Below are positions 15,275 to 18,333 of a stretch of DNA of 42,738 bases, one piece after another (position 1 is the stretch's first letter; every line of letters starts with the position of its first letter). The notes beneath the pieces are model-generated. The model had not been told where the DNA came from. It made no database searches and saw only the letters and a program-made list of their open reading frames with translations. The position numbers and the translations under genes are program-made. Source of the DNA: Pseudomonadota bacterium (GTDB lineage Bacteria > Desulfobacterota > Binatia > UBA1149); the NCBI GenBank assembly GCA_014382245.1, contig JACNKC010000091.1, forward strand, positions 1-42,738, given 5' to 3'.

Positions 15275-16864
15275 TCAGAGAATCTTGCGACGGCGGCGCA
15301 CGTAGTCAACCAACAGGAATTTACCCAGCTGGTCGGGGGCCATGTAAAACGCCCTGCCCCGGTTGGCGGCCGTCATTTTCTCAACAAAAGCGCGTAGTGC
15401 CGGGCTGTCGTCGAGCATAAAGGTATTAAGGCGTATACCGCTGGCCGTAACCCGCCCGACCTCCTTCAGTGTCTCCTGGCTGGCCCGCGACGAGAGCCCC
15501 CCTTCGCCCAGTGGCCACTCGCAGAAGAGGCGCCCCGAGCGAAAATACGCGGTCGGCTGACCGTCGGTAATGATAATCATCTGTCGGCTTCCGGCCGTAC
15601 GCCCCATCAGGATCTCGCGTCCGAGGCGCAGCCCGTCCTGCAGGTTGGTAAACGGCTCGCCCATGTTCCAGCTGGTTTCAGGCAACCGCCCAGGATGCAG
15701 TTCCACCGCGCGGGTATAAAAGCCCACCACGGCAAAGAAGTCCTGGGGATGTTTCGTCCTGATCAGCGTCTCCATGGCCATGGCCACCCGGCGCGCTGCG
15801 GCAAAACGCCCCTGCCAGCTCATCGACCAACTCATATCGAGCAGCAGCACGGTAGCAGCCCTCGTGTCGCGCTCTCTCTCCACTACCTCGAGATCAACAG
15901 GGTGGAGACGCAGGGGCAGCCCGGGCGATCGCATCACCGTGTTGCGAAGCGAAGCCAACACGTCGAGATCGGCTGCTTCGTCAGGTTGCCAGGGCCTCGA
16001 GACCCCGGGCAAGGCCTCTCCGTGCCCCGGTCGTGTAGTACCGTGATTACCGTGGATGTCGCCGACGAGCTCTCGGTAGATCTCGCGAAGAGCCACCTGT
16101 CCCAACTTGCGAGCTCCCCTGCTGGTGAGCCGGGCCTGGCCCTCGTCGCCAGCTATATACCCGCCCTCGTGCAGCACCTGCATCACCTGGGCAAGCCGCT
16201 CCACGTCTTCGGCCGACTCCTCGCCGAGCAGTTTCTCAACTTTCTGCTTGTCGACGGCATTGAAGTCGCGACCGAAAAGCAGGTTCTTGAGATCCAGGAG
16301 GCCCTCGATTCGATCGAGGAACTCGAGCGCGCGTTCGTAGTCCAGAGAATCCGGGCCCTTGAACATCCTGCCACGGCCGCGGATAAACAACGCCAGCCGT
16401 GAAACATCGGCCAGCTGTTCAGTGAGTTGGTCAAAAATTGCCGAAGCATCGGCGTCGAGAAAACCGTAGCCACCAAGGCGTTCGATGGCCCCGTCTATGT
16501 CCGCCGGCACAGAACCGAGCAAAGACTGCCTCCGATTGGCGTCACGACTATCGTTGAGTGCGTCGGCAGCGGCTAGTTCCGATTCCAACACCCGGCGCAT
16601 GAGCTCGCGTTGACCGTCGAGCGCGTGGTCAAAATTAACCTCCGATTGAAGTTCGCGCAGGGCGTCGTCTATGCGTTCGAGCAACGCGTCCACGCCGGTG
16701 ACCTCGAGCCCCTTGTCGACAAAACCAGCCGACAGCATACGACTGAGCGCTTCGTTGAAGTCAGCCGATTCGTTAAAGAAACGGGAGATCTCCTGGAAAA
16801 CACCATCGGCATCCAGGCGTACCGACCCACCGGCCTGCCAGCGGGTGTAGAGCAATCGAGCCAC
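15275..16864 (-). CDS. VWA-domain protein, partner of a MoxR-like ATPase
   Basis: A 529-residue cytoplasmic protein. The C-terminal von Willebrand A domain (about 336-529) has a complete metal-binding site: Asp343-x-Ser345-x-Ser347, Thr406 (FTNLQDG) and Asp434 (ITDGQP). The N-terminal 300 residues are helical, charged and not recognised; they read FDHALDGQRELMRRVLESELAAADAL near residue 78. There is no signal peptide or membrane segment. The gene lies 6 bp after the AAA+ ATPase gene, so the pair likely works together, as in MoxR/VWA or Mg-chelatase D-type systems where the VWA protein presents a substrate or metal-site to the ATPase. The client is unknown. The mutS start follows its stop directly. 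Confidence 0.8.
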   Translation of the reverse strand: MARLLYTRWQAGGSVRLDADGVFQEISRFFNESADFNEALSRMLSAGFVDKGLEVTGVDALLERIDDALRELQSEVNFDHALDGQRELMRRVLESELAAADALNDSRDANRRQSLLGSVPADIDGAIERLGGYGFLDADASAIFDQLTEQLADVSRLALFIRGRGRMFKGPDSLDYERALEFLDRIEGLLDLKNLLFGRDFNAVDKQKVEKLLGEESAEDVERLAQVMQVLHEGGYIAGDEGQARLTSRGARKLGQVALREIYRELVGDIHGNHGTTRPGHGEALPGVSRPWQPDEAADLDVLASLRNTVMRSPGLPLRLHPVDLEVVERERDTRAATVLLLDMSWSMSWQGRFAAARRVAMAMETLIRTKHPQDFFAVVGFYTRAVELHPGRLPETSWNMGEPFTNLQDGLRLGREILMGRTAGSRQMIIITDGQPTAYFRSGRLFCEWPLGEGGLSSRASQETLKEVGRVTASGIRLNTFMLDDSPALRAFVEKMTAANRGRAFYMAPDQLGKFLLVDYVRRRRKIL

Positions 16865-16870
16865 CGCCGA

Positions 16871-18268
16871 TCAGGCGCTGAAAGACAGGCGCCCCCCCTC
16901 TCGCTTGCGACCCAGCAGCTCGTGGAGGTGCAGGCCTTCGAGCACGAACTCCGCTGCCGCGGCCATCAATCCCGGGGTTTCAAAGGTTCCGAGCGATTCG
17001 ATCGCCTTCCTCAGACCCGACACGGTTGCCACCCCATCGAGGTAATCCTCGCTGGCCATCGAATCCGACACCGAGATGCCCCAGCCTTCCCTCACATATT
17101 CCACCACCTCTTGAAGCTCGGCGATTTCGAAATGCTGGTCAAAGACCGCCTTGGTGGCCCGGTTAAGCAATCGCTCGATCACCCTCGACTCGATGTCGCC
17201 TTCGACGCCATACTCAAACTCGAGTTTTCCTGCCATCGACGCGAAGACCGAATGAAAGTCGCTCAACCTCGGCACGATCTCGTTATCGTCCTGGCGAATA
17301 GCCCGTTTCTCTGCATTGGCGATCAGCGTTTCAAAATTATCGATGGTCACCCTCACGCTCACGCCAGAGGACTGGTTGAGCTCCTCGGCAGCCCGGGCTT
17401 CTCTGCTCAGTGTCGCGACAATGTCGCGCACGAAGGGCGGCACCCGGATCTCCCGACCGCCGCGGGGGGCCAATGACACTTCGAGTTCGAGTATCTCGGT
17501 TTCGACTTCGACCGTACGCGGGTAGTGCGTGCGAACGCGCGCGTTGAACCTGTCCTTGAGTGGGGTCACGATGCGGCCGCGGCTCGTGTAGTCCTCGGGA
17601 TTGGCCGTCGCGACGATCACAACGTCCATGGGCAGGCGCAGCTTGTAGCCCTTGAACTGCAGGTCACGCTCCTCCATGACATTAAAAAGACCAACCTGTA
17701 CTTTCTCGGCCAGGTCGGGGAGCTCATTGATCGCAAATACCCCACGGTTGCTGCGAGGGATGAGCCCGAAGTGCAGGACCTCTTCATCGCTGAGATGACG
17801 ACCCTCGGCTACCCTTATCGGATCGATCTCGCCCACGAGATCAGCCATGCTCACGTCAGGGGTGGCGAGTTTTTCACCGTAGCGATCGTCCCGTTGCAAC
17901 CACAGCACCGGAAGTTCATCGCCCAGCTCGGCTTTCCTACGCCGACACGCGGCGCAATGGGGGTTGAGCGGATCGTCGTTTATAGGACAGCCATCTACCG
18001 CCGGCACCTCCTCATCCAGCAAACCGACGAGTGCGCGTATCAATCTTGTCTTGGCCTGGCCGCGTTCACCGAGCAACACCACGTGGTGGCCAGCCAGCAC
18101 GGCGTTCTCGAGCTCGGGAATTACCGTATCGTCGTAACCCCTGACCGACGAGAACACCCGCTGGTCTTTCTTGAGCGCGACGATGAGGTTGTCGCGCATT
18201 TCGTCGCGAACACTGCGCGAGGTCCAACCCGACTCTACGAGTTGCCCCAGTGTAGTCGGAGCGGCCAC
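16871..18268 (-). CDS. MoxR/Mg-chelatase-like AAA+ ATPase
   Basis: A 465-residue AAA+ ATPase, probably a hexameric chaperone for the VWA protein encoded next. The P-loop is GERGQAKT at 67-74; the Walker B equivalent is VFAINELPDL at 177-186; sensor 1 is ATANPED at about 220-226; and an Arg-containing sensor-2-like segment is at about 304-310. A Cys pattern, Cys94 with Cys105 and Cys108 (CPINDDPLNPHCAACR), may bind zinc and sits in a loop between the P-loop and Walker B. The GTG start has no ribosome site, but a promoter-like sequence ends 6 bases before it. The family is well recognised; the biological role is not. Confidence 0.82.
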   Translation of the reverse strand: MAAPTTLGQLVESGWTSRSVRDEMRDNLIVALKKDQRVFSSVRGYDDTVIPELENAVLAGHHVVLLGERGQAKTRLIRALVGLLDEEVPAVDGCPINDDPLNPHCAACRRRKAELGDELPVLWLQRDDRYGEKLATPDVSMADLVGEIDPIRVAEGRHLSDEEVLHFGLIPRSNRGVFAINELPDLAEKVQVGLFNVMEERDLQFKGYKLRLPMDVVIVATANPEDYTSRGRIVTPLKDRFNARVRTHYPRTVEVETEILELEVSLAPRGGREIRVPPFVRDIVATLSREARAAEELNQSSGVSVRVTIDNFETLIANAEKRAIRQDDNEIVPRLSDFHSVFASMAGKLEFEYGVEGDIESRVIERLLNRATKAVFDQHFEIAELQEVVEYVREGWGISVSDSMASEDYLDGVATVSGLRKAIESLGTFETPGLMAAAAEFVLEGLHLHELLGRKREGGRLSFSA

Positions 18269-18274
18269 CCCGGG

Positions 18275-18303
18275 AGTATATTTACAGAACAGGGGTGCTG
18301 CAA
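18275..18303 (-). promoter_or_regulatory. Candidate promoter of the AAA+/VWA unit
   Basis: On the minus strand, TTGCAG (18298-18303) and TATACT (18275-18280) are 17 bp apart, the ideal spacing for sigma-70. The -10 box matches 5 of 6 consensus bases and the -35 box 3 of 6. Transcription would start about 6-7 bases downstream, at or next to the GTG of the ATPase gene. It lies in the 65-bp gap after the lapA-like gene, so the downstream AAA+-VWA-mutS group probably has its own promoter. Confidence 0.45.
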
Positions 18304-18333
18304 AGACGCCGCGGCAATCAAAAAGACGAGCTG

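Follow-up and report, generated by a model that had tools for sequence, protein, structure and literature searches.

An AAA+ ATPase and a VWA protein encoded before mutS in a Binatia bacterium: a widespread gene pair, probably of the AAA+/VWA remodelling kind

The gene pair and its sequence features

The stretch of DNA analyzed here, referred to as the window, comprises 42,738 nucleotides (nt) of contig JACNKC010000091.1 (assembly GCA_014382245.1) from a Pseudomonadota bacterium that GTDB places in the class Binatia. Along its minus strand, an IHF-like gene is followed by a HIT-family gene, a LapA-domain gene, a gene for an AAA+ ATPase, a gene for a von Willebrand factor type A (VWA) protein, and mutS, with the stop of the VWA gene touching the start of mutS (15275/15274). 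The AAA+ and VWA genes are a real, widespread pair of the AAA+/VWA remodelling kind, a kind that is itself already known. It is fairly probable that they encode the two parts of a single ATP-driven remodelling machine that acts on a client encoded elsewhere in the genome. The gene pair, its motifs, its co-occurrence, the absence of a chelatase subunit, and the folds of the single-chain models are established in what follows. An earlier reading of this DNA from its letters alone (the sequence-only reading) had described an ATPase gene adjacent to a VWA gene leading into mutS, and both open reading frames are found in that arrangement on the minus strand. The features of the module are the following:

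16871..18268, minus strand: AAA+ ATPase gene, 465 amino acids (aa), ChlI-like, GTG start
15275..16864, minus strand: VWA adaptor gene, 529 aa, with helical N-domain, finger-like element, and VWA domain
18275..18304, minus strand: promoter-like site TTTGCA-18-TATACT, 6 nt before the AAA+ start codon
18047..18070, minus strand: Walker A GERGQAKT, AAA+ residues 67-74, from motif reading
17945..17989, minus strand: Cys94, Cys105, Cys108 motif, possible metal site, from joint presence or loss in family rows
17753..17833, minus strand: helix-2-insert-like segment, AAA+ residues 146-172, from conservation and assigned by analogy with NorQ
17723..17737, minus strand: Walker B place, FAINE, with Asp replaced by Asn (NE in 105/106 rows)
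17549..17605, minus strand: sensor-1/ANPEDYT to LKDR segment, AAA+ residues 222-240, from conservation
16064..16810, minus strand: VWA protein residues 19-267, an N-terminal region that is all-helical in the model and matches no sequence family over cut-off
15866..16027, minus strand: strand-helix-strand finger-like element, VWA protein residues 280-333, from the model, conservation, and YehP alignment
15287..15865, minus strand: VWA domain, residues 334-526 (PF13519, 30.7 bits against a cut-off of 27)
15824..15838, minus strand: DxSxS (343-347) of the metal-ion-dependent adhesion site (MIDAS), with T406 at 15647-15649 and D434 at 15563-15565

The ATPase carries Walker A GERGQAKT, an insert with Cys94, Cys105, and Cys108 (the Cys-rich insert of the sequence-only reading), FAINE at Walker B, ANPEDYT, and LKDR. 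In Pfam and NCBIfam, only the broad families AAA_5, Mg_chelatase, and Sigma54_activat exceed their cut-offs for the ATPase, and VWA_2 for its partner; no specific family does so for either protein. The Walker B place reads NE in 105 of the 106 rows of the family alignment, which counts the window protein twice, and X in the remaining row. Elsewhere it reads DE, in 11 of 13 ChlI-like rows and in the MoxR rows. All three cysteines are present in 55 of the 106 rows, none in 46, one in 5, and two in 0; being kept or lost nearly as one set, they suggest a metal site. Their joint loss in many lineages resembles the alternation of C+ and C- forms among ribosomal proteins. The Cys segment lies between Walker A and Walker B; all 13 ChlI-like rows have it, and RavA, YehL, and seven MoxR rows do not.

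The sequence-only reading had called the ATPase MoxR- or chelatase-like, and it is the chelatase (ChlI) side of that description that stands. Judged by sequence the protein is nearer ChlI than MoxR, the closest families being TIGR02442 (E 1e-12) and, at about 6e-11, TIGR02031/TIGR02030. Its score against the MoxR-class family AAA_3 is 26.5 bits against a cut-off of 27, which the family members from G003, G004, and G007 narrowly pass at 27.0-27.2. CbbQ_C (PF08406) is not among the family matches of the window ATPase, and none of the CbbQ loci matches the ATPase family profile at E 0.01. The window's own genome does encode an AAA+ protein of the CbbQ/NorQ type (PF08406; G000:C39:60704-60955), separate from this ATPase. 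In a tree that took 23 hand-picked rows of the 81 in the family, the ATPase family forms one group (100/100) and does not group with the MoxR rows, while deeper placement among ChlI-like, CbbQ, and MoxR rows is without support and involves long branches. Left out of the tree were a MoxR fragment (MOXR_L159), two CbbQ rows in which no Walker A was found (CBBQ_L146 and L152), L150, whose row was not extracted, and L160, which has no family-profile match. The nearest group, with weak support (83/31), consists of the ChlI-like rows L042, L044, and L047. These ATPases read FIDELPAI at Walker B and have a related VWA gene close by (140-189 bits to the VWA model), and they possibly represent a sister AAA+/VWA pair.

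The MIDAS of the VWA protein is complete (DxSxS at 343-347, T406, and D434), as had been claimed, and its ligands are conserved in the aligned rows, the first four in 53/53 and D434 in 52/53 with one X. The N-terminal 300 residues, earlier described as unrecognised, split in the model into two parts. Residues ~19-267 form a separate all-helical region that indeed matches no family over cut-off, but residues ~280-333 are a conserved finger-like part that precedes the VWA core. Conservation is 0.62 for the finger-like element, 0.62 for the VWA core, and 0.50 for the N-domain, and the finger-like element and VWA domain align to Escherichia coli YehP (hhalign probability 80). No AAA family match was found in the VWA protein. 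In four short VWA forms (380-420 aa), found in records of Planctomycetes and Acidobacteria, most of the helical N-domain is missing, which makes finger and VWA together the apparent working core. A second VWA protein (32-36% identical, open frame of 609-823 aa) occurs in five class genomes (G013, G026, G033, G040, and G046), with no second AAA+ match.

The promoter-like site upstream of the AAA+ gene compares with 0.1 such sites expected from shuffles. Its -10 box ends 6 nt ahead of the GTG start, and a leaderless AAA+ mRNA is possible. A TATANT box lies at most 60 nt upstream of the aligned AAA+ start in 16/28 class relatives, against 0.37 expected from single-base shuffles; the count covers 28 of 29 fetched class relatives, with the window's own copy excluded, and the relatives are non-independent and their starts taken from the alignment. 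Among the 16 positive relatives, the box is within 20 nt of the start in 7 and at 39-57 nt in 9. Since this box recurs upstream in relatives, the AAA+/VWA module, proposed earlier to have its own promoter, is probably, at least to some extent, transcribed independently, judging from the match to promoter consensus.

Conservation, distribution, and neighbouring genes

Compared with a genome of the same genus (G001), the module is under purifying selection, with ratios of nonsynonymous to synonymous substitution rates (dN/dS) of 0.06 for the AAA+ gene and 0.095 for the VWA gene, and 0.095 for mutS. Across 58 class genomes, the window's own included, the AAA+ protein is matched in 56 and the VWA protein in 55. 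Both genes are present beyond remnants in 54 of these genomes, adjacent in 51 (at most 312 nt apart) and separated by 2.1-4.2 kb in 3, a split counted by eye. The exceptions are G005 and G048, which have neither gene, G047, in which the AAA+ gene lies at a contig edge, and G002, which has a remnant. G002, also of the same genus (L165, G002:C12:116000-134000), lacks ~2.7 kb corresponding to window positions 15488 to 18186; most of both genes is absent, their remnants are fused, and the flanking DNA shows about 91-93% identity. Provided that the assembly is correct, the module has here been lost naturally and as a whole; otherwise, the gap is an assembly error. In the VWA copy of G001 (L166), an 11-nt insertion shifts the frame.

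The two genes also go together in the wider phylum. Among 198 phylum genomes, the AAA+ gene is found in 17, all 17 of which have the VWA gene, and the VWA gene is found in one of the 181 AAA-negative genomes (G147; Fisher p 1.2e-23, from a test that ignores shared ancestry). The thresholds, above 200 bits for AAA+ and above 300 bits for VWA, were set after a score gap was seen, and 12 further phylum genomes have VWA matches of 74-189 bits, below threshold. The genome searches scored the best few candidates per genome (8 or 6). A still wider sample took the best 80 of at least 590 matches in GTDB genomes, which with the window gives 81 loci. The VWA gene lies inside the fetched stretch in 61 of these, and all 20 of the other genomes have it elsewhere or on another stretch; the 20 loci include short stretches, some of which end beside the AAA+ gene (e.g., L101 and L118), where linkage is possible. 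Co-conservation, which had been named beforehand as a point on which the pair should be judged, is thus found both in the phylum (17/17) and in the wider sample (20/20 with VWA elsewhere). Record titles among the best 80 matches include Binatia, Rokubacteria, Chloroflexi, Actinomycetota, Planctomycetes, Acidobacteria, Latescibacterota, Myxococcales, and others. The pair is a very widespread family, in at least eight phyla by record title, and not a local system.

The sequence-only reading had found no client gene nearby, and this extends to the relatives, where no neighbor other than the partner recurs in more than 19 of the 81 loci. Every neighbor cluster of 10-19 loci is made up of records titled as actinobacterial (or, mislabelled, as Bifidobacterium). 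A further two, of 6-7 loci, cross lineages, with scattered positions on both strands, and the 16 regions around VWA genes lying apart hold no neighbor cluster above 3 loci. Because the two genes go together, often without a fixed neighbor, the pair suggests one complex acting on something encoded in trans. Of the seven matching plasmid records, four align over 80% or more of the query, all of them in replicons at least 0.4 Mb long; phage records gave no match, and none in viral contigs was confirmed. A virus or plasmid origin was rejected.

Two further observations concern the surroundings. A gene of ~300 aa lies upstream of the AAA+ gene in five fetched loci (L061, L072, L074, L088, and L103), directly before it in four; the representative scanned has no Pfam match, and a Thermomicrobium gene at the same upstream place (L143 6066-6974) is named type II secretion protein E. 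In Tsukamurella (L183 12294-13230), the pair lies near an rpsR-rpsN-rpmG-rpmB cluster, perhaps by chance. Zinc-free ribosomal paralogues often occur in clusters of this type.

A putative remodelling machine and its rivals

AlphaFold single-chain models were obtained with a predicted local distance difference test score (pLDDT) of 88 for the AAA+ protein and 85 for the VWA protein. In a second structural comparison, alongside one with Foldseek, the AAA+ model matches NorQ (Z 17.6, root-mean-square deviation (rmsd) 3.1, 248 aligned) and CbbQ (Z 17.4, rmsd 3.6, 250 aligned), with archaeal Lon level with both (Z 17.1, rmsd 5.2, 270 aligned), followed by BchI (Z 15.6, rmsd 3.3, 209 aligned) and sigma-54 activators (Z about 15). 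The VWA model matches many VWA folds, with Z up to 21.1, among them NorD (9qh8_G, Z 18.7, rmsd 9.6 over 221). In the NorQD complex, the NorD finger (403-448) likewise sits toward the N-terminal end of the VWA fragment (382-638), and cryo-electron microscopy places this finger inside the NorQ pore and supports twisting (PMC13036017). The NorQD authors propose that ATP turnover twists NorD, letting iron into nitric oxide (NO) reductase, and NorD MIDAS mutants keep NorQ binding and yield inactive reductase (PMC13036017; PMC9976466).

By analogy with NorQ and NorD, the AAA+ protein of the window may assemble as a hexameric ring on which the VWA protein would dock, its finger-like element reaching the pore and the helix-2 insert. 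The MIDAS metal of the VWA domain would hold an acidic patch of the client protein, and ATP turnover would twist the VWA part against the ring, opening or reshaping the client. The client gene would lie elsewhere in the genome, with a possible link to ClpC-type proteolysis or quality control. In its most far-reaching form, the proposal is an unnamed widespread remodeller from the chelatase-motor branch, cut off from chelatase, with the Walker B Asn fixed across phyla, a metal site switched as a unit, and a housekeeping role connected with ClpC-type proteolysis and not with a single metalloenzyme; taken as a whole, this is speculative and rather unlikely.

Several observations count against a remodelling machine built on the NorQD plan. 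Foldseek orders the matches of the AAA+ model as Lon, BchI, NorQ, and puts pilus adhesins and other VWA proteins before NorD, whose chains rank 3 and 9. Because Lon and BchI on the one side and adhesins and other VWA proteins on the other rank higher, the match is non-specific, and the predicted folds fit NorQD without singling it out. The fixed Walker B Asn may signal a weak or altered ATPase. The finger of the window protein carries DE where most relatives carry GD, and its last two residues are not conserved, whereas the last two of NorD matter for docking to NorQ. The links to RavA and ViaA are weak (hhalign probability 35 for RavA and 22 for ViaA), and rough gene calls on the fetched neighbors reveal no third gene recurring in more than 19 of 81 AAA+ loci.

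A narrower form of the remodelling machine would be a dedicated metal- or cofactor-insertion chaperone for one metalloenzyme, as NorQD is for NO reductase or CbbQO for Rubisco. NorQ and CbbQ head the second structural comparison, tied with Lon, and E. coli RavA-ViaA acts on fumarate reductase (PMC10585395). An sdhA-like gene lies 2-5 genes from the AAA+ gene in 19/81 loci (between L079 and L128), all with actinobacterial titles, 14 of them Acidimicrobi-. However, the linkage is seen in a single lineage only, and 18 of these 19 genes run opposite to the AAA+ gene; the sdh linkage is not used as proof of a client. As a side observation, sdhB- and sdhC-like genes stand beside many of the 19, which recalls RavA-ViaA and fumarate reductase. 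A COX1/NorB-family protein (E <= 1e-20) is missing in 7/17 AAA-positive phylum genomes (control 8/14). The family occurs in 10/17 AAA-positive genomes against 50/181 others (p 0.012), and outside the class in 3/10 against 50/181 (p 1.0). A heme-copper oxidase or NO reductase as obligatory client was rejected, since 7 of 17 carriers have no COX1/NorB match and there is no link outside the class. A chaperone dedicated to a single metalloenzyme is, all told, a doubtful reading.

The best experimental lead on the client is the mycobacterial ClpC1 interaction. MSMEG_5512 (AAA) and MSMEG_5511 (VWA) are both in the Mycobacterium smegmatis ClpC1 interactome; MSMEG_5512 binds ClpC1 with a low-micromolar apparent constant (Kapp) by thermophoresis and is not degraded by ClpC1P1P2, and its Mycobacterium tuberculosis counterpart also appears in a two-hybrid screen (ClpC1) and a knock-down study, as cited there (PMC10433963). 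These data would fit a partner, adaptor, or regulator of the ClpC unfoldase (ClpC1 in mycobacteria) that delivers or protects clients and does not insert cofactors. Such a role is nonetheless improbable: the ClpC1 interactome holds many proteins, and MSMEG_5512/5511 are assigned to the family from annotation and from gene order in Tsukamurella, in which purH precedes the AAA+/VWA pair by a few genes, and not from alignment. Of the other mycobacterial records, MSMEG_5511 is 1.6-fold lower in a pafBC mutant, and Rv0959 is an entry in a host quantitative trait locus (QTL) table. Literature searches for the pair under several names returned no study of its function, with most subscription journals outside their coverage.

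Existing annotation would make the proteins motor subunits of a magnesium or cobalt chelatase (bchI in Binatota and 'magnesium chelatase' in mycobacteria), a reading that is very improbable. It draws on the closest sequence families, TIGR02442 and TIGR02031/TIGR02030, on a Cys motif common to ChlI-like proteins, on the expression of Rv0958, which reportedly rises with tetrapyrrole genes in dormant M. tuberculosis (PMC10774309), and on a Mycobacterium marinum insertion 49 bp before the gene, found among mutants growing at high vitamin B12 (PMC11237697). However, CobN/BchH (PF02514) was found in 0/58 class genomes, the window's own included, and in 5/14 control genomes. The ATPase scores 41.9 bits against a curated cut-off of 466.95 for TIGR02030 and 47.4 against 779.45 for TIGR02442, and its family has the Walker B Asn fixed. 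In the VWA partner no AAA domain was found and the N-domain is all-helical in the model, unlike ChlD. A tetrapyrrole chelatase was rejected on the negative CobN/BchH search and on scores of a tenth or less of the curated cut-offs; the BchI cut-off is passed by 0/58 class genomes, but also by 0/14 control genomes, Synechococcus included, and because this test lacked a working positive control the rejection relies on the CobN/BchH search and the low scores. A 2021 study placed bchI within the bacteriochlorophyll pathway, with gene homologues 'ubiquitous' in Binatota (PMC8262859). Since the best TIGR02030 (ChlI-type) match is this ATPase gene in 53/58 class genomes, at no more than 52.6 bits, and CobN/BchH is absent, the bchI reported for Binatota is likely this gene.

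The label that PGAP gives to relatives, 'sigma 54-interacting transcriptional regulator', implies a sigma-54-dependent transcription activator, which is extremely unlikely. PF00158 (Sigma54_activat) scores 23.2 bits against a cut-off of 20.2, which is read as shared AAA+ ancestry only. In the structural comparison, the AAA+ domains of sigma-54 activators reach Z about 15 against the model. The GAFTGA string, the loop motif of sigma-54 activators, is absent from the 465-aa ATPase as read by eye, and the family scan found no DNA-binding domain in it. The M. smegmatis protein (MSMEG_5512) is in an RNA polymerase pull-down list, but no DNA was recovered with it, although the authors consider DNA binding still possible (PMC7092591). 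An assignment of orthologues to a known pathway had been named as what would undo the sequence-only reading; the labels they carry (Mg chelatase, bchI, and sigma-54 regulator) are contradicted or unsupported. Hardly credible, too, is a role in conflict or defence similar to that of the MoxR-vWA ternary systems, with which the pair shares an AAA+ plus VWA core in outline (PMC7159879). The recurrent third component is absent among the examined loci, PADLOC returned one match of only 15.4 bits, and bpMoxR scores 17.2 bits against a cut-off of 27. The distribution largely contradicts such a role, with the ATPase present in 56/58 class genomes and no phage-record match or confirmed viral-contig match.

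If the two proteins are indeed one remodelling machine, then databases mislabel a pair found in at least eight phyla by record title, and presumed to have counterparts in mycobacteria, when they call it a transcription activator or a chlorophyll enzyme. This has a bearing on the bchI claim for Binatota (PMC8262859), which is set against CobN/BchH in 0/58 genomes and a best ChlI-type match that is this gene in 53/58. An entry in a ClpC1-interactome list would become a testable two-protein complex, and the family would offer a natural test of the effect of the Walker B Asn in AAA+ motors.

Comparison with known systems

NorQ/NorD share with the window pair the two-protein layout with an N-domain, a VWA part that begins with a finger-like element, and the MIDAS; NorQ heads the second comparison of the AAA+ model (tied with CbbQ and Lon), and NorD is among the VWA matches. 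In contrast to NorQ, the window ATPase is ChlI-like with a Cys insert, reads NE and not DE at Walker B, and has no CbbQ_C match. The window pair also has no linked client, and it occurs in genomes without COX1/NorB-family matches.

ChlI/BchI-ChlD/BchD and the putative cobaltochelatase TIGR02442 are the nearest sequence families, with the Cys motif and the AAA+ plus VWA logic in common, and BchI matches the AAA+ model at Z 15.6. The window pair differs from Mg chelatase in belonging to a class without CobN/BchH (0/58), in scoring far below the cut-offs, in a helical-N VWA partner without an AAA+ domain, and in the Walker B Asn.

In E. coli, too, AAA+ and VWA genes stay close, those for RavA and ViaA being adjacent and those for YehL and YehP sharing a cluster, and YehP aligns through the finger and VWA of the window protein. 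RavA and YehL differ in being without the Cys segment of the window ATPase. The mycobacterial pairs Rv0958/Rv0959 and MSMEG_5512/MSMEG_5511 are presumed to be orthologues; they carry the same labels (magnesium chelatase and von Willebrand factor type A) and are neighbors by locus number, and the Tsukamurella and Nocardia counterparts were recovered with the window protein and the profiles. What the window pair has in common with AAA+/VWA remodelling pairs in general is a constant VWA partner with a complete MIDAS, the exception being G147, which has the VWA gene alone.

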